Source: Streptomyces diastatochromogenes (lineage in GTDB: Bacteria > Actinomycetota > Actinomycetes > Streptomycetales > Streptomycetaceae). From it: DNA of 64,000 bases. The DNA lies in the NCBI GenBank assembly GCA_001418405.1, contig LIQL01000247.1, forward strand, positions 1 to 64,000, written 5' to 3'. Under the pieces are notes generated by a model. That model was not told the origin of the DNA. It searched no databases and saw nothing but the letters and a program-made list of their open reading frames with translations. Below, piece after piece: positions 44,326-52,690 of the stretch. The translations under genes were made by a program, and so were the position numbers. Positions within the stretch are counted from its first letter, which is position 1. The number at the start of each line of letters is the position of its first letter.

Positions 44326-44934
44326 CTAGCCCTGGCCGCCGAGGAGTTGGGTGATCTGCTGGACGACCGCCGTCGCCGAGGCGAGCCCCGCCACGGCCGT
44401 CGCGCCGAGGTCGAGGCGGTCGCGCAGCCACTGCAGGCGGTCCCGACGCACCCGCCCGGTGTCGTCGATCTCCTCTTCGGCGTCCGCCAGTCGGGCATCG
44501 ATCTCCGACGTCTCGTCCGTCGCGGTGAGCAACGGCAGGTGCTGACGCAGGGTGCCCAGTGCCGCCCGGAGTTCGGGCGGCGCGTCGAGCGCCGGTTGCG
44601 TCGAGGCGTCCAGCGCCCGGGCGTCCGCCCCCGCGGCCGCCGCACCGCCGGTCATCACGCCGATGCTGATGCCGCCGGCGGCGCTCGTCGGCACGGCGGG
44701 CGCCTCGGGCCCGTCCGCGGGCGGGAGCGCCGGTGCCGAGCGGCCGTCGCGCACCGAGCGGTCCTCGGCGGCGGCCCGCTCCCCGGCCGCGACCGCGCCG
44801 CCGGTCAGTACGCCGATGCTGATGCCGCCACCGGCCCGGTTGCCGCCCGCCGCCGCGTCGCCGGGCGGGGCGGCGTCCGTCCCGTCGTCGCCGACCTCCC
44901 GGCCGTGCACTGGCTCCGGCTCCTGAACCGTCAT
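44326..44934 (-). CDS. unknown protein with two glycine-rich RHIM-like motifs
   Basis: A 202-residue protein whose start overlaps the stop of the upstream membrane-protein gene by 4 bp (ATGA). Two near-identical words, GGISIGVLTGGAVAAGERA (36-54) and GGISIGVMTGGAAAAG (87-102), sit in an otherwise disordered Ala/Pro/Asp-rich N-terminal half. The C-terminal half is helical: ELRAALGTLRQHLPLLTA, an acidic coiled coil (SEIDARLADAEEEIDD), and a hydrophobic end (GATAVAGLASATAVVQQITQ). The same motif ends the membrane protein encoded upstream. I know no family; the [IV]-x-I-G core recalls RHIM-type amyloid motifs. Confidence 0.75.
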   Translation of the reverse strand: MTVQEPEPVHGREVGDDGTDAAPPGDAAAGGNRAGGGISIGVLTGGAVAAGERAAAEDRSVRDGRSAPALPPADGPEAPAVPTSAAGGISIGVMTGGAAAAGADARALDASTQPALDAPPELRAALGTLRQHLPLLTATDETSEIDARLADAEEEIDDTGRVRRDRLQWLRDRLDLGATAVAGLASATAVVQQITQLLGGQG

Positions 44935-46679
44935 CCCCGACCGCCCCCCGTCTCCGTCGACGCGTCCGTGTGCTTGGCCAGGGCGCGCTCGCCGGAGGCG
45001 ACCGCACCGCCGCTCATCCCGCCGATGAACACCCCGCCCTCACCCACGTTGATGATGTACTGGTCGAACACACCCGTTTCGTAGCCCTTGTTGCGCAGGG
45101 CCTCCTGCACCCCGTTGGCGATCCGGTCCTGGAGCGTCTTCACGTACCGGCTGATGTCCATCTCCTGGAACAGCGAGAGTTCCGGCACGCTCCCCAACTC
45201 CCGTACGGACGCGACCGGTGCGTCCGGCAGGGCGTGTTCCGGCATCGTCAGCCACGTGCGCATCAGGGACACCGCCGTCTGGCACAGCGAGACCGCGGCG
45301 GCGCATCCCGCCGAGGGGCTGGTCAGCACGCTCCTGATCACGTCGCGCAGCGGGCCGTCCCCGCCGTGCGCCGCGACCACGTCCACCGACTTGAACTCCG
45401 GGCGCACCGGCGTCAGGACGTGCGGGGCGACCTCCAGGACCAGCATCCCGCCCTGGGTGTGGATGCGGACCAACAGGCAGATCGCCACCTGCTCGTCCCA
45501 GGCACCGACCCGCACCCGCAGGAAGTGGCGGCGGGCCTCGGCGCCCTCGCCGACGGCCCGTTCCAGGTGCTCACGGATGACGTCCGGCCCGTAGTCCACC
45601 TCGTCCCGCGCCAGCCCGACCGGCAGGTAGACCAGTTCCTCGACTTCGAGGGAGCGCAGGCGGTCCCGGCTGGTGGCCGCGGCCGAGGTGCGCAGCGCCT
45701 CCAGCCGGGGCTTGATCAGATCGACCACCTCCCGGCCGGTGAGCGGGGCGGGGACGCTCCCGGGCCGCCGCTTCGTGAAGGAGGGCGGCGCCGGGTGCGA
45801 CGGGGACTCCGGCGCCTCCCGCTCCGGCGAGTCGGCCCAACTCTGCTGCTTCAGTTCCATGGCGACCGACCACGGCTTGTACGGTGTGCCGGCGCCGACG
45901 AAGGGCCGGAACGGGTCGTAGATGGCCAGCCGGGCGTGCTGTTCGCGGGCGATGGCCGCCCCGATGCGCCGGTACTGGGCGGTGGCCGGCAGCGCCGCCC
46001 GCCGCCCCCCGGCGAAGGTCTCGCGGCCGAGTTGGTGCCGCATGACGGAGACGACGTGCGCCCGGTGCGCCCAGATCGGCGGCACCAGCAGGACCGGGAA
46101 CACCACGGCGATCCAGGCGTCGCCGCCGCGGAACAGGGTGGTGAGCACGGCCGCCCCGTACACCACCGCCACCACGAACGGCAGTACCGGCAGCACTGCC
46201 TTCAGCCGGCCGCGGGTGGCCTCCTTGAGCACCGAGCGCCCGAGGGCGAAGAGGGAACTCCTGGTTCCACGCACGAGCCAGGACACGACGCAGACCGCCC
46301 CGTAGGCCACGAACCACGGCACGGGGAGGAGCGACTGCGCACCGACGTCGGCCAGGTCGAGCCCGATGAATACGGCCCAGACGGCCAACAGCAACAGCCC
46401 GGTCTGCGCCTCCCGGCGGCGCGCCGACAGCGCGTGGGCGAGGACCGGCAGGGCGTCGAAACCGAGCGAGGGCGCTATCGGGCGCTCCTCGTGCTCGACC
46501 AGTTCCTGGATGACGCGGCGACGGAACTGTCCGTCGAAGTAGACCCCCGCGCACAGCAGGCGGGTGGCTTCGCTGAGGCCCTGTTCGGAGGGCGGTCCGT
46601 CGGATGGCGAGGAGGGGTCCGTCGGCGATGGAGTGTTCGACGGAGCGGTCGCTGGTTTTTCGGGGAAGGACAAGATCAT
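44931..46679 (-). CDS. large membrane protein ending in a glycine-rich RHIM-like motif
   Basis: A 582-residue protein, first gene of a coupled operon. After a Pro/Ser-rich N-terminus come four transmembrane helices (about 93-110, 118-136, 161-182, 189-204), then a long cytoplasmic part that includes FTKRRPGSVPAPLTGREVVD, GLARDEVDYGPDVIREHLER and a beta-rich domain (HFLRVRVGAWDEQVAICLLV). The C-terminal tail carries GGVFIGGMSGGAVASGERA (548-566), the motif found twice in the next protein. No enzyme signature is recognised. The ATG at 46679 is preceded by GGGGG; the exact start is moderately sure. Confidence 0.75.
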   Translation of the reverse strand: MILSFPEKPATAPSNTPSPTDPSSPSDGPPSEQGLSEATRLLCAGVYFDGQFRRRVIQELVEHEERPIAPSLGFDALPVLAHALSARRREAQTGLLLLAVWAVFIGLDLADVGAQSLLPVPWFVAYGAVCVVSWLVRGTRSSLFALGRSVLKEATRGRLKAVLPVLPFVVAVVYGAAVLTTLFRGGDAWIAVVFPVLLVPPIWAHRAHVVSVMRHQLGRETFAGGRRAALPATAQYRRIGAAIAREQHARLAIYDPFRPFVGAGTPYKPWSVAMELKQQSWADSPEREAPESPSHPAPPSFTKRRPGSVPAPLTGREVVDLIKPRLEALRTSAAATSRDRLRSLEVEELVYLPVGLARDEVDYGPDVIREHLERAVGEGAEARRHFLRVRVGAWDEQVAICLLVRIHTQGGMLVLEVAPHVLTPVRPEFKSVDVVAAHGGDGPLRDVIRSVLTSPSAGCAAAVSLCQTAVSLMRTWLTMPEHALPDAPVASVRELGSVPELSLFQEMDISRYVKTLQDRIANGVQEALRNKGYETGVFDQYIINVGEGGVFIGGMSGGAVASGERALAKHTDASTETGGGRG

Positions 46680-47215
46680 GCACCCCCGTGATCGAACTCG
46701 TCCCCTGTTGCGAGGTGTTGACGGAGTTGCTATGGGGGCAGTATGACTCCCGGTCGTCGGACCCGGAAGGGGTTCCGTCGGCTTGGCAACTCCTTTGCTG
46801 TGACGATGAGTTGACGCCCAAGACGGCCGTTGCTCCCGGCGCCTGCGCCCGCGCGTGCGCCGGGAGCCACCCCTGGGGCGCGAGGGGCGGTACGGCCGGA
46901 GGTGCGGGCGGTGGCGGGGGAGCCGTGCGCACCCGGCGGGAGGTCCGTCGCGCCCGGGAGCGCTCGGCGGGCGGAACGGCGTCGGCGCCGGTGGGAACGC
47001 GCCTTGCGGTGCCGGGCCGTCGTGCACCACGGCGCAAGCCGGCGATGCGAGACCTCGGACCTCCGGCGCACAACTGCTCAATATATGAAGAATGCAGATA
47101 ATGACGTTATCGGTGAGCGGGCCGGGAAGGCGTTTGGGCGGGGCGATTCGGGCCCCGCATTCCTGTGCCCCGGCCGACCGGCGGGGCTTCGGTGCTCGGT
47201 GCCGGAGGAACGTAC
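46680..47215. other. intergenic region between membrane operon and lanthipeptide cluster
   Basis: About 535 bases between divergent operons with no convincing gene. Frames here are Arg-rich shadows. The segment 47075-47112 is AT-rich for the genome and contains GATAA-N5-TTATC (47097-47111), a candidate regulator site or promoter element about 105 bp before the first lanthipeptide gene. The left edge must hold the promoter of the membrane operon. Confidence 0.5.
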
Positions 47216-48199
47216 ATGCTGATGGTCACGGACCTGCTCGCGGACTGTCTCCGCAACGCCGGAGCCCTGGAGATATCCGCCCTCCCCGCCTGTGCGGACG
47301 CTTCCGAACTCCCCGAGGCCCGCACCGCGTTCCTGGCCGCCGGCCTGGCCGCCGTGCGGCAGCGGACCGCGGGGACGTCCTGGGTCCAGTTCAACCTCGC
47401 GCCCGCGCCGGACGGTCACCTCCGGGCGTACGACTGGCTGGGCACCGTCGCCAGGGAACTCCTCGACACCGGCCGCGCTCGCAACTTCTTCTTCATGCAC
47501 AAGGAGCCCGGACTGCGGGTGCGGTTCGAGGCGCCGGACGGCGAACGGGAGCCGCTGCGCGCGGAGTTGGCGCGGCACTGCGTCGAACGGGGCGGTTGGC
47601 GGCAGCCGCCGTCGGGTGTGGTGTACGAACCCGAGCAGTACCTCTTCGGCGGCCGGGCGTCGATGCCCTACGTGCACCGGCTGTTCACGCACGACTCGTT
47701 GGCCTGGCTGGACCACCACGCCCGCCATCCGTGCCCCGAGGGGGAGGCCACGGCCTGGCGGCGCTCGCTGTTCATGCTGCGGGAGGTGTTCGCGGGGCTG
47801 GGAGTGGTCGGGTGGGAGCACCGGGGCGTGTGGGACGTCGTACGCGAGGACACCGGACGCCGGCTCACCACCGCCGCCCGCGACGGGCACGGGCCCGGAG
47901 GAGGGGCGGCGTGGCGGCGGGCCGCCGAGGGCATCCGGGAATTCTGGACACGGCCCGGCGAGCGGATGCTCGCTTCGTTCCCCGAGGAACAGCGGGCGTC
48001 CCTCGCCGAGGGTGCCGCGGCCCTGGGCGAGGCGGCCCGACGGTGGCGCACCGGCTACTTCGAGTCGGGCGCCGCCACCACCGGCCCCCGGCGCGCCGCC
48101 GCCTACGCGGTGGTCTTCCACTGGAACCGGGCGCGGATGTCGTTCGCCCGGCAGTGCCTGTTGGCCGAGGCGCTCGCCGATGACGGGGAGGCCCGATGA
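47216..48199 (+). CDS. LanB elimination-domain protein (thiopeptide-type dehydration, SpaB_C)
   Basis: A 327-residue stand-alone version of the C-terminal domain of class I lanthipeptide dehydratases, which removes glutamate from glutamylated Ser/Thr to leave Dha/Dhb. TSWVQFNLAP, RNFFFMHKEPGLRVRFEAP and the C-terminal VFHWNRARMSFARQC (with the H-x-N-R residues) are typical. GGAGGAACGTAC precedes the ATG. It overlaps the glutamylation-domain gene by 4 bp, so a split LanB is made from one mRNA. It is the first gene of the cluster. Confidence 0.88.
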   Translation: MLMVTDLLADCLRNAGALEISALPACADASELPEARTAFLAAGLAAVRQRTAGTSWVQFNLAPAPDGHLRAYDWLGTVARELLDTGRARNFFFMHKEPGLRVRFEAPDGEREPLRAELARHCVERGGWRQPPSGVVYEPEQYLFGGRASMPYVHRLFTHDSLAWLDHHARHPCPEGEATAWRRSLFMLREVFAGLGVVGWEHRGVWDVVREDTGRRLTTAARDGHGPGGGAAWRRAAEGIREFWTRPGERMLASFPEEQRASLAEGAAALGEAARRWRTGYFESGAATTGPRRAAAYAVVFHWNRARMSFARQCLLAEALADDGEAR

Positions 48200-51090
48200 C
48201 GCGCCGCGCGCCGGACGCGGCCGGCGCCCGCCCACCGGCCGCGGCGGCCCGCCCGCCCGGCACCGTCGGGCCGACCGCACTGGTCCGCATCGCCGGACTG
48301 CCGGGCACGCTCTGGGCGTCCGCCGGCAACGAACCGCTCTTCACCTGGGCCGCCGACCTGGCGGAGCGGGACGCACGCCACACCGCCCGGGCCAGGGCAC
48401 TGGGGGACCGGCTCGGGATCGACGTCGTGCCGCACCCGTGCCTGGCCGACGCCGCCCGCGGCGCGGTGCTCGCCCTGCGCCGCAGACTGCACGCCGGGAC
48501 CGCCCCCGGACCCGCGGACCTCCCCGTCCTGGAGACGGTGGCCGGCGTCGACCCGCCCCTGGCCGACGCCCTCACGGAGCTGGCCGACCGGGCCATGGAC
48601 CTGGCCGCGGCGCGGGCCGCATGCGCCGCCGCGGTCGCCACCGACCGCGCACGGGTGGGCCGGCTGGCCCTCGACCTGCTGCACCACGACCCCGTCCTGC
48701 GCGGCCACCTCGGCGCCACCGCACCCCGGATCGCCGCGGACTTCCCCCGCCGGGCGGCCGCCGGCGAACCCTGGCACGGCAAACGGCTGCGCAAGTACAC
48801 CGGCTACGTCTGGCGGGTGGCCGCCCGGGCCGCCGCCAAGACCACCCCGCGCGACTGGCTCGGCCAACTCGCCGCCGTCCCCGTCTTCCCCGCACCCGCA
48901 CTCGGCGCCGCCGCGGCCGGTGATTCCCTCGTCGTGCCGCCCGCCCGGGCCGGGGCCGGCGCCACCAGCAGCATGGAGAACGTCCACCTGCTGTGGGAAC
49001 GGCTCCGGGACGCCGGACCGGCCGCCGCCGGCCCCGGCAGCCTCCTCGCCCTGACGCCCCTGCACTGCCCGATGCCCACCGGCGTGCTGCGCTGCGCGGT
49101 CGTCGACACCGGCTCCCGGGGCTCCCGGCTGCGCCGGATCGAACTGCGCCGCACACCGGTCCTGGACGCGGTCCTGGCGCTCCTCTCGCCCGGCCCCCGC
49201 CCGTTCGCCGAGGTCGAGGCCCTGATCGCGGCGCGCCTGAACACCCCGGCGAACGGCACCCCTGAAGGGCGGCGGCGGGCCGTCACCGCGCTCCGCGGGT
49301 TCCTCCAGCACCTCCTGCGGCTGGGCGTCCTGCAACTCTGTGCCGCGCCGGCGCAACGCCGCACGCACTGGACCCCCGCCGCACGGATCCACCCGCCGCA
49401 CCACGCCCTCGACGACCACCCGGCCCCGGCGACCGCAGCGGCCCCGGACGCTCGCGACGGCACCGGCCCGCACGCCACCGACGCCGCGCCGCCCCACCAG
49501 GACGCCACGTGGTTCGTCGACTCCTACCGCACCCTCGACGCCGGCCTCGACGCCCTCGCCCTGGCCCGGATCACCCGCGGCCTGCGGCTCGCCACCCGGC
49601 TCGCCGCCCTGCGCGCCGAAGACCGTCCCCCCACGAACCCCACCGGTACCACCGCCCAGCCGTACCCGGGACCGGTGGACATCGGCCCCGAACCGCGCTC
49701 GGTCGCCGAACTCCTGACCGCCCCGCCCGCCGACCCCTCCGCCGAGCCGGACCGCCCGACCACCGCCACCACGCGCCGCCGCTACGAAGGCTGGCACCCC
49801 GCCAGGACGCCCGGTTCCGGATACGCCCACCTGCTCGCCCACCTCGCGGCCCACCTCGACGACGCGCGGATCGACCTCGACGGCCCGCTGCTGGACGCCT
49901 GCCACGCCCCGCCCGAGGCCCCCGAACTCCTGGCCGCCTGGCCGGCGGACTGCCTGCTGCGCCCGCTCGACGCCGAGGGGCCGGTCGCCGTCCTGGAGAC
50001 GGTCTCCCCGGCCGGCGTGCTCGACGCCCGGTTCGCCGAGGCCCTGCACGCCCTGCACGCCGGTCGGGGCGGCTACCCCCAACCGGCCGCCTACCGGGCC
50101 TTCCTCGCCGCCCTCGAACGGGCCGCGGACGTCCGCTTCGTCGAGGTGCTGGTCCCCCCGTTGGACGCCCGCGCCGCCAACGCCGTACGGCGTCCCGCGC
50201 TGACCGACTGGTGCACCGGAGATGCCAACATGGCTCTCTATTACGGGAGTTACGGCGACGGCGAGGCATGCGGAGCGGCGGCCGCGGCGACGCCCCGGCC
50301 GCCGGGCGGGAAGGCTCCCCGCCCCGTCCACCACCTACCCCTCGACCGGCTCACCCTCCGCTCCGACGGCCGCCAGCTCGTCGCCGAGGTCGACGGGGCG
50401 CGGGTCTTCCCCGTCCACCACGCCACCCGGAACCCCGCCCCGCCCTACGACCGGCTCACCCGCCTGCTGATGGCGGCCGCCCACCCGGCCACCCAGCACG
50501 TGGTCCAACTGGGCGGCCTGATCGGGGCGTTCCCCACGGCCGGGCGGGTGCCCCGGCTGTCGGTGGGCGGGGACCTGGTCGTCAGCCCCGCCGCGTGGCG
50601 GGTGCCCGTCGCGGAACTGTGGGAGCCCGGAGCCCGGGAGGCCGACAAGGTGACGTCCCTCGCCGTCCTCCGGCGCACCCGGCAGCTGCCGCGCTTCTGC
50701 TTCGCCCGCCCGGCGCCCGGTGCCAAACCGGTACCGGTGGACCTGGCGGCGCTGCCCACCCTGCACGTCCTGGAACGACTGCGGGCCGCCGCGCCCGACG
50801 GGGCGTTGATCGTCGAGGAGGCGCTGCCCGCACCTGGCCGCTCGCCGGTGCGCGACGCCGTGCACGGTGGGGCACCCGTCGCCGCCCAGGTGCAGCTGCG
50901 GACGCCGTACGACGCCCACCCCGAGGAGTTGGCGGCCCGCGCCGCCGCGGCCCTGCGGCACTGGTCCGCACCGCCCCCGCCTCGACCGAGGCCCCAGACC
51001 ACCCCGGACGCCCCTCCAGAGGGACGGCCCCCGGGGCGGAACCGCACACCGAGAAAAGGAGGGCAGTCATGCCCACAACCATCGAACTGA
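48196..51090 (+). CDS. LanB glutamylation-domain protein (lantibiotic dehydratase N-terminal type)
   Basis: A 964-residue protein that glutamylates Ser/Thr of the precursor using glutamyl-tRNA. Family words are RRLHAGTAPGPADLPVLETV, WHGKRLRKYTGYVWRVAARA with AAAKTTPRDWLG following, and VHHLPLDRLTLRSDGRQLVA near the C-terminal third. It lacks the elimination domain, which is the separate gene upstream. Ala/Pro-rich insertions explain the large size. The start ATG overlaps the previous stop; its own 3' end overlaps the lanA start by 22 bp, so the ribosome binding site of lanA lies inside this gene. Confidence 0.88.
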   Translation: MTRRAPDAAGARPPAAAARPPGTVGPTALVRIAGLPGTLWASAGNEPLFTWAADLAERDARHTARARALGDRLGIDVVPHPCLADAARGAVLALRRRLHAGTAPGPADLPVLETVAGVDPPLADALTELADRAMDLAAARAACAAAVATDRARVGRLALDLLHHDPVLRGHLGATAPRIAADFPRRAAAGEPWHGKRLRKYTGYVWRVAARAAAKTTPRDWLGQLAAVPVFPAPALGAAAAGDSLVVPPARAGAGATSSMENVHLLWERLRDAGPAAAGPGSLLALTPLHCPMPTGVLRCAVVDTGSRGSRLRRIELRRTPVLDAVLALLSPGPRPFAEVEALIAARLNTPANGTPEGRRRAVTALRGFLQHLLRLGVLQLCAAPAQRRTHWTPAARIHPPHHALDDHPAPATAAAPDARDGTGPHATDAAPPHQDATWFVDSYRTLDAGLDALALARITRGLRLATRLAALRAEDRPPTNPTGTTAQPYPGPVDIGPEPRSVAELLTAPPADPSAEPDRPTTATTRRRYEGWHPARTPGSGYAHLLAHLAAHLDDARIDLDGPLLDACHAPPEAPELLAAWPADCLLRPLDAEGPVAVLETVSPAGVLDARFAEALHALHAGRGGYPQPAAYRAFLAALERAADVRFVEVLVPPLDARAANAVRRPALTDWCTGDANMALYYGSYGDGEACGAAAAATPRPPGGKAPRPVHHLPLDRLTLRSDGRQLVAEVDGARVFPVHHATRNPAPPYDRLTRLLMAAAHPATQHVVQLGGLIGAFPTAGRVPRLSVGGDLVVSPAAWRVPVAELWEPGAREADKVTSLAVLRRTRQLPRFCFARPAPGAKPVPVDLAALPTLHVLERLRAAAPDGALIVEEALPAPGRSPVRDAVHGGAPVAAQVQLRTPYDAHPEELAARAAAALRHWSAPPPPRPRPQTTPDAPPEGRPPGRNRTPRKGGQSCPQPSN

Positions 51091-51239
51091 CCGACCTCGA
51101 CAACCTCATCGGCGATCTGGACGCCCGGATCACCGAGTCCGAACTGCCCAGCGCCGAGGCGTACACCGGCGGCTGCTCCGGCGTCTGCACGGTCATCGTC
51201 TGCGACACGGTGCTCTTCTGTTCCGGGGTCGTCTGCTGA
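51069..51239 (+). CDS. lanthipeptide precursor LanA
   Basis: A 56-residue peptide with an excellent ribosome binding site (AAAAGGAGGGCAG). The acidic leader (TIELTDLDNLIGDLDARI) ends near YTGG. The core holds five Cys (C36, C40, C45, C51, C56), each preceded at two or three residues by its own Ser/Thr: T33-C36, S37-C40, T41-C45, T47-C51, S52-C56. Five small consecutive rings are therefore possible, with a hydrophobic filling (TVIV, VLF, GVV) and no Lys or Arg in the core. Cleavage after GG35 would drop T33. It matches no lantibiotic I recognise. Confidence 0.88.
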   Translation: MPTTIELTDLDNLIGDLDARITESELPSAEAYTGGCSGVCTVIVCDTVLFCSGVVC

Positions 51240-51317
51240 CCGGAGGATCCACCCGCCGCGGATGAGCACCGCGGCGCGACGGACCGTCAACGCAGTTCAC
51301 AGCAGACGAGGTTGAAC

Positions 51318-51346
51318 GAGCCGTCCGGCATCCCGCCGGACGGCTC
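51318..51346 (+). terminator. attenuator hairpin between lanA and lanC
   Basis: GAGCCGTCCGGC, loop ATCCC, then GCCGGACGGCTC: a perfect 12-bp stem in the 131-bp gap after lanA and 24 bp before the lanC start. Partial termination here would give more lanA mRNA than lanC mRNA, as in many lantibiotic operons. No U-tract. Confidence 0.75.
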
Positions 51347-51370
51347 CCTGCCCTGGAGGACGCCGCACCC

Positions 51371-52648
51371 ATGCCCCTGCACTCCCGCACCGGACACACC
51401 GCCGCCGTGCACCCGCGCCCCTCACCCGCTCGGGAGGCCCGGTGGCGGGCCCACGCCCTCCAGGACGCGGTGCTGCTCCTCGACCGGTACGTCGAGCGGG
51501 CCGGCACCGGCCAGGCACCGGGCGCCGGCGGCCACCCCTCGGACCCGGGCGTCCCGGTCCTCGCCCGACTGGTCGCCGACCGCGGCGACCCCGTGGCCAC
51601 GGCCGCGGCGAGCCGCGCCACCGCCGTGTGGGCCCGCACCGCCGGACGCGGGGCGGGCCACCCGGGCCTCTACGACGGCGGGCTCGCCGGAACCCTCGTC
51701 GGGCTGCGCCAGGCGGCCACCCTCCACCCGGCCCTGCACCAGGTCGCCGACCGCCTCGCCGACCGGCTCCCCGCACGCATCCTGGCCGGCGCCGCACGCA
51801 CCACCCCCGGAGCGGTCACCTTCCGGGACTACGACCTGATCCTCGGCCCCGCCGGCACCCTCCTCGCACTGAGCTCCGCCGCCCCGGAGCGGCACCGCGT
51901 GCTCGTCCGCCTCGGCCGGTGCCTGGCCGCGCTCTGCGCCGCCGACGGGCTCGACGGACTGCGCACCCACTATCCGGAACATCCGCAACTGGGCTGGCTG
52001 GACGGGCGGATCAACACGGGCACGGGCCACGGCGTCGCCGGCGTCCTGACCGCCCTCGCGGTGGCCGCCCGGCAGGCGGAGGAGGGCGATGCGAGCGCGG
52101 CCCCGGAACTCGCCGCGGCCCTGCGCCGGACGAGCCGTTGGCTGCGAGGCCAGTCGTTCGTCGACGCGCGGGGCATTCGCTCCTGGGACGGCGCGGGGCC
52201 GGAAGCCGCCCCGCCCGGCGGGGCCCGCCGCCGACAGGCGTGGTGCTACGGAGCCCCCGGCGTCAGCTGGGCGCTGTGGGACGCCGGGGACACCCTCCGG
52301 GACCCCGCGGTCCGGGACTTCGCCGGCGCCGCCTTCGACACCCTCGCCGCCGGCTACGACGAGGACTTCCACCTCTTCGGCGACCACCTCGGCGACCGCC
52401 TCGGCCTCTGCCACGGCGCCGCCGGGGTGCTGGCCGTCGCCGACGCGCTGCACCGGCACGCTCGACTGCCGTCGGCCACCGCACTGCGCGCCCGCCTCCT
52501 GGCGCACCTCGACGCCCACCGGGCCGGCACCCGCGCGCTGGGGGAGGAACGGATGGGCCTGCTGGGAGGCGCCGGCGGCACCCTGAGCGCCGTGCTCACC
52601 GCCACCGGCGGCGCCCGCGACTGGCTGCCCTGCCTGGGCCTGCGCTGA
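51371..52648 (+). CDS. LanC-type lanthionine cyclase
   Basis: A 425-residue cyclase that adds Cys thiols to dehydroamino acids. The zinc ligands are C292 (WCYGAPGVSWAL), C347 and H348 (LCHGAAGVL), and H220 lies in GTGHGVAGVL, the conserved GHG motif near the active site. GLYDGGLAGTLVGL and YDLILGPAGTLLAL are the repeat helices of the double barrel. The ATG has GGAGG 11 bases upstream. It completes the class I set with the split LanB. Confidence 0.9.
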   Translation: MPLHSRTGHTAAVHPRPSPAREARWRAHALQDAVLLLDRYVERAGTGQAPGAGGHPSDPGVPVLARLVADRGDPVATAAASRATAVWARTAGRGAGHPGLYDGGLAGTLVGLRQAATLHPALHQVADRLADRLPARILAGAARTTPGAVTFRDYDLILGPAGTLLALSSAAPERHRVLVRLGRCLAALCAADGLDGLRTHYPEHPQLGWLDGRINTGTGHGVAGVLTALAVAARQAEEGDASAAPELAAALRRTSRWLRGQSFVDARGIRSWDGAGPEAAPPGGARRRQAWCYGAPGVSWALWDAGDTLRDPAVRDFAGAAFDTLAAGYDEDFHLFGDHLGDRLGLCHGAAGVLAVADALHRHARLPSATALRARLLAHLDAHRAGTRALGEERMGLLGGAGGTLSAVLTATGGARDWLPCLGLR

Positions 52649-52690
52649 CCCCCGCCGTAACCAGCGATGTGAGTGGCCGTTAACCCGTCC

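Follow-up and report, generated by a model that had tools for sequence, protein, structure and literature searches.

A four-gene unit within a 64,000-nucleotide stretch of Streptomyces diastatochromogenes DNA (hereafter the window) has the makeup of an spt-type cassette encoding a SapT homologue with five rings, and its product is most likely a surfactant morphogen; judging from the genes and their relatives, we give this reading a probability of roughly 0.87. Both this type of cluster and its five-ring variant have been published before, and the window adds another member. New in this analysis are the borders of the cassette, two control elements bound to it, and one cassette outside Streptomyces. 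The features are as follows (window positions):

46778..52650, + strand: whole cassette, ~5.87 kb (about 5873 bp), limits taken from the empty site of a related genome, G175 (locus L061)
47059..47093, + strand: conserved 35-bp box, consensus nncnccnGCGcACnnCngtngaTcaTAtGAcnAat, upstream of the lyase gene in 17/19 loci
47216..48199, + strand: stand-alone glutamyl lyase, SptBb-like, 327 aa (Lant_dehydr_C, E 9.1e-11; TIGR03891, E 8.2e-16)
48196..51090, + strand: stand-alone glutamyl transferase, SptBa-like, 964 aa (Lant_dehydr_N, PF04738, E 9.8e-10)
51069..51239, + strand: SptA-like precursor, 56 aa with five Cys; predicted cut A31/Y32, core YTGGCSGVCTVIVCDTVLFCSGVVC
51318..51346, + strand: lanA-lanC hairpin GAGCCGTCCGG..CCGGACGGCTC, 12-bp perfect stem
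51371..52648, + strand: LanC cyclase, SptC-like, 425 aa (LANC_like, PF05147, E 1.3e-18)

The four genes at 47216-52648 lie on the plus strand in the order lyase, transferase, precursor and LanC. A first-pass annotation had described them as a class I lanthipeptide cluster with a split LanB in one overlapping operon. The classification is borne out by Pfam and NCBIfam matches for each gene, which recover separate elimination and glutamylation proteins, LanA and LanC, and by homologous loci with the same enzymes. The overlap holds for the first three genes, with 4 bases common to lyase and transferase and 22 to transferase and precursor, but not for lanC, which starts 131 bases past the LanA stop.

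LanA matches were found in 15/392 genomes drawn from Streptomyces and, in a draw from the class, in 6/394 genomes, namely five Streptomyces and one member of another family (G620). At 18 further non-redundant loci, precursor homologues with this ring spacing and leader accompany these enzymes, so the unit is not a chance arrangement. All four genes occur in the same order in 19/19 of these loci (window included), and every one of the 9 named relative loci is from Streptomyces. Kept outside the 19 were L034 (at a contig end), L038 (distant, with no transferase or LanA match) and the later L090-L094, among which L093 and L094 are complete. A locus of Streptomyces rhizoryzae RS10V-4 (L030, same record as L016) lies at the same site as the window cassette and encodes a five-ring core, its precursor being 88% and its lyase 75% identical to those of the window. 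Plasmid-borne cassettes were considered and rejected, as only two Streptomyces plasmids carry lyase relatives (40-43%).

When 22 loci (the 19, the empty-site flanks L061 and L062, and L038) were compared using purpose-written gene calling, no other gene family occurred in more than five, so that having neither protease nor transporter linked seems characteristic of the family. Pfam searches of the four-gene unit and the five neighbouring genes likewise revealed no protease, ABC transporter or immunity gene, as the first-pass annotation had noted. It had also called leader removal unexplained; this question is not confined to the present locus, since the available texts describe the spt cluster (PMC9011353) and the dmx cluster (PMC11855644) as having no protease either, and the dmx authors suggest that some protease of the host S. 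albus may release their product.

Five pairs of Ser/Thr and Cys had been proposed in the precursor (T33-C36, S37-C40, T41-C45, T47-C51 and S52-C56), and all are present, with the correction that the two or three residues lie between the partners. The core is hydrophobic and free of Lys and Arg, as claimed; it also contains no His and one Asp (Asp46), and its GRAVY, counted from Tyr32, is 1.55 versus 1.56 for the core of locus L022 (genome G181), which served as stand-in for spt in sequence comparisons. The spacing TxxC, SxxC, TxxxC, TxxxC is the SapT-type pattern. Mature SapT begins at Tyr and has the same first four ring spacings as the window core; the cut after Ala31 is placed by analogy with this start and would leave a 25-residue core with a calculated monoisotopic mass of 2394.03 Da with five rings (C105H159N25O29S5; [M+2H]2+ 1198.02).

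The statement that no described lantibiotic has this pattern is wrong: rings one to four are those of SapT, whose cluster has the same anatomy, and fifth-ring precursors are published (PMC9011353). According to the available text of that paper, 6/41 unique SapT-type precursors bear an extra S-G-V/I/L/F-V/I/G/F-C stretch, i.e. S-G-x-x-C, which the window's SGVVC fits. That text places the extra stretch N-terminally, whereas it is C-terminal in the window, L016 and L017, the three five-ring cores among the 19 non-redundant loci; 'N-terminus' is likely a slip in the text. A three-enzyme tree (19 rows) requires three changes, gains or losses, to account for the five-ring cores, and their grouping as one clade was rejected (AU p 1e-10). 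Moreover, L031, with four rings, and L016, with five, are sisters on this tree at full support. Together these results indicate that ring number changes quickly along the tree, which does not distinguish the direction. The cores of L026, L027, L028, L029, L032 and L068 have no first ring or an altered end (GSALNC, GSAINC), showing that ring patterns vary beyond four or five.

The window shares with the spt cluster of Streptomyces lavenduligriseus Tu901 a split LanB, a lyase with the syn-type signature, LanC, the absence of a protease and a hydrophobic TxxC-SxxC-TxxxC-TxxxC core, while the fifth SxxxC ring at the C-terminus and Asp46 are the window's and not SapT's. L022 encodes what we take to be the SapT core letter for letter, and the window proteins are 53% (lyase), 50% (transferase) and 57% (LanC) identical to its enzymes. 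Lys92 and Leu142 of the L022 lyase and His191 of its cyclase are also the positions given for SptBb and SptC (PMC9011353, available text). The first core Thr is residue 32 in L022, compared with Thr35 as the first modified Thr reported for SptA (PMC9890492, available text), which may reflect a different start or strain. The available texts of PMC9011353, PMC9890492 and PMC9486935 describe SapT as a surfactant morphogen made by SptA, SptBa (glutamyl transferase), SptBb (lyase) and SptC, with three methyllanthionines (MeLan) that are all D-allo-L and with syn-elimination by SptBb. The dmx cluster of S. thermolilacinus SPC6 resembles the window in its precursor, split LanB, LanC and absence of a protease, and dmxorosin was grouped with SapT by its authors; unlike the window, it has four sulfurs in its formula and an extra gene, dmxD (PMC11855644, available text). 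None of five invented dmxorosin-like cores matched the dmxorosin formula.

For the transferase, the Lant_dehydr_N match spans residues 602-850 only, and phmmer gave no match among PDB sequences up to E 1. Its AlphaFold model (pLDDT 66, poorer than the lyase model) has its best matches in stand-alone glutamylation enzymes, namely TbtB of a thiopeptide pathway (Foldseek E 3.4e-21; Z 15.1, rmsd 6.1, 559 aligned) and GodF of the goadsporin pathway (Z 17.7, rmsd 5.8, 515 aligned). They share this fold with the window protein but are only 16-20% identical to it and serve other RiPPs. In LanC, an alignment with NisC and a LANCL-type chain places H220, C292, C347 and H348 on the NisC/LANCL motifs, so that the zinc ligands Cys, Cys and His and the catalytic His are all present. 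Thiopeptide clusters are defined by a YcaO-type azoline enzyme and a second, [4+2] enzyme; this cluster type was rejected for the window, where only four genes lie between the borders and no YcaO match was obtained (Pfam, E 0.01).

In the lyase, K96 (of an FFF-x-x-K motif), R101, R103 and L143 (window numbering) are invariant in 21/21 aligned lyases. A profile alignment with the canonical MadB (PDB 9g04), weak at E 0.011 and leaving the C-terminal half of the lyase unaligned, sets K96 against Tyr and L143 against Arg. The syn-lyase signature is thus present, with Lys for Tyr, a hydrophobic residue for Arg, and the two arginines for the gamma-carboxylate retained; the replacements of Tyr and Arg are the predictors of D-allo-L-MeLan used in PMC9011353, PMC9890492 and PMC9486935 (available texts). 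From this signature, the lyase is predicted to act by syn-elimination, giving D-allo-L-methyllanthionines. A phmmer search with the single lyase sequence found no match among PDB sequences up to E 1. Its AlphaFold model (mean pLDDT 84) resembles the MadB elimination domain (9g05_A; Z 19.6, rmsd 3.9, 269 aligned), MibB (Z 19.5, rmsd 8.1, 283 aligned) and NisB (4wd9_A; Z 19.0, rmsd 3.6, 225 aligned), and thiopeptide [4+2] enzymes rank lower (best Z 16.0, rmsd 3.8, 243 aligned). It is most improbable that the split LanB is instead a canonical, anti-eliminating one which makes ordinary DL-MeLan and resembles SapT superficially: anti-acting split systems do exist (PMC9486935, available text), but here both canonical residues, Tyr and Arg, are replaced in the MadB profile alignment, and by residues found in each of the aligned lyases.

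If these enzymes instead produced an antibacterial lantibiotic, the class I machinery and the five rings would fit. We consider this unlikely, as no immunity or exporter gene lies within the cassette borders, no flanking gene is widely common among the relatives in the 22-locus gene-family comparison, the core has no cationic residue, and the related dmxorosin, in the available text of PMC11855644, produced no zones of inhibition on either Gram-positive or Gram-negative bacteria. 'Lantibiotic', as used in the first-pass annotation, is probably the wrong word, SapT being a biosurfactant morphogen (PMC9011353), while 'class I lanthipeptide' stands. A further reading would count the DUF6417 protein and the macrolide-type glycosyltransferase encoded 3' of LanC as cluster genes that glycosylate the peptide. 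Both do occupy this position in the window, in L016/L030 and in L031. They also occupy it in G175 and G311, where no lyase, precursor or LanC matches were found and the transferase match in G311 is weak (26%) and looks compositional, and neither was matched in the sequence stretches around the other 16 cassettes. Since the same genes stand at the empty site, they are flanks, and we rejected them as cluster genes; a part in glycosylation of the peptide is hardly credible. DUF6417 is encoded in 13/392 Streptomyces genomes, and only 2 of the 13 (the window's own genome and G265) have the precursor.

The borders of the spt-type cassette follow from G175, in which the cassette-flanking genes lie side by side without it, an arrangement that insertion or loss alike would give. 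The G175 flanks are 85-89% identical to the window in DNA and 80-95% in protein; homology ends at window position 46777 and restarts at 52651, leaving the four genes and 438 bp upstream between the borders. No integrase was seen among the four cassette genes. In G311, the same intergenic gap holds ~3 kb of other sequence (L062:6283-9249), with genes read by eye as EF-hand-like and oxidoreductase-like, and this occupancy may mark the site as an insertion hot spot. Two adjacent divergent genes on the minus strand (window 44329-46685), with no Pfam family and a G-x-x-IG-x-M/L-x-GGA-x-A-x-G motif in both, also adjoin the empty site.

Upstream of the lyase gene, a purpose-written motif finder run on the upstream regions of the 19 loci revealed the 35-bp box with a score of 256, compared with 64-67 (three lighter runs) and 65-68 (five runs at the same effort) for composition-shuffled regions. 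The box is likely the promoter/operator of the operon; a search for a sigma-70-type promoter detected none. Its TTGATCATATGA-x-CAA part is near-palindromic and would suit a dimeric regulator. The box matrix was built from 16 sites, omitting L028 (cut by the search edge) and L034 (not among the 19 loci), which score 30.2 and 26.6, respectively. Of the 19 loci, only L023 and L024 have no box. The box is not reported in the available texts of the spt papers PMC9011353, PMC9890492 and PMC9486935.

In the 9.1-Mb genome of the strain itself, a 23-bp version of the box, scanned with <=2 mismatches allowed, matched at the cassette and nowhere else. Across the genus, allowing one mismatch, we found 19 sites in 18/392 genomes, and a reversed control pattern gave 0 matches in the same scan. 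Upstream of a lyase gene lie 14/19 of these sites: 11 at cassettes known from the 15 LanA-bearing genomes, partly by construction, and three further ones at lyase genes missed by the LanA search (G073, G298 and G102). The remaining five are elsewhere with no lyase nearby. In G298 (L091:7560-8600), box, lyase, transferase and LanC are present and no precursor gene was found between transferase and LanC; in G073 (L090), box, lyase and transferase are accompanied by no convincing LanC or precursor in 14 kb.

The second control element is the hairpin between lanA and lanC. A GAGCC-type stem is present here in 16/19 loci, the exceptions being L024 (another stem), L023 (a weak one) and L017 (none). 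Across 15 distinct hairpins, L032 being omitted as equal to L029, 3/11 aligned stem pairs vary on both sides; the best stem was chosen per locus, so that full pairing is partly by construction. Hairpins at this place in such operons usually act as read-through elements that keep the precursor mRNA in excess.

The cassette in G620 was found through a weak LanA match (E 8.8e-4). Its locus (L094:7279-12260, minus strand) repeats the gene order of the window, from lyase through transferase and precursor to LanC, and the lyase has an FFFMHK motif and Leu in the place of Arg. The core is quite different and ends in SLLLCSGGCGGGWSWHWYC, and no box was found (best matrix score -2.3). Since SptA homologues were found in Streptomyces only (PMC9011353, available text), L094 looks like an extension of the SapT-type family beyond this genus.

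For the route to the product and its role here, we infer the following. The glutamyl transferase would load Glu from Glu-tRNA onto Thr33, Ser37, Thr41, Thr47 and Ser52, and the SptBb-like lyase would remove glutamate, with syn-elimination at Thr giving E-Dhb. LanC would then close five non-overlapping rings, comprising three D-allo-L-MeLan and two Lan, and an unlinked host protease may cut after Ala31 to release a hydrophobic peptide of 25 residues that has a single Asp and lacks basic residues. Outside the cell, the peptide most likely serves as a surfactant letting hyphae leave the wet surface, alongside a SapB/AmfS-like peptide. The strain's own genome encodes a class III synthetase (1170 bits), adjoined by a small gene (L063:1723-1851) whose product ends in what we take to be a SapB/AmfS-type core, with an ABC-transporter-like frame, read by eye, beside it. 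That this transporter also exports the five-ring peptide is a guess. Control common to both clusters was rejected, as a box matrix scan of the 12-kb contig with the SapB/AmfS-like cluster gave no positive score (best -6.3). The genome also encodes a second, full-length LanB-type protein (1097-aa frame, contig C3, L064:2847-6140). Externally added SapT restored aerial growth in SapB-deficient S. coelicolor (PMC4255298, available text).

More tentatively, and at somewhat less than even odds, spt cassettes may be autonomous, portable morphogen islands. In Streptomyces, four genes, hairpin and private box would move together into many chromosomal sites and be switched by one unlinked regulator that reads only the box. 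Ring number would be adjusted time and again under an unchanging control element, and in one or more cassettes beyond Streptomyces these enzymes would be paired with a core of quite another kind. Empty site, box and hairpin delimit the cassette and offer a handle on its regulator, and the box can serve as a DNA probe for further clusters. The window presents a SapT homologue with five rings, for which a rare stereochemistry is predicted and a mass to search for is given. With SapB-like and SapT-like systems together, the strain is a good place to ask whether two surfactants are redundant.
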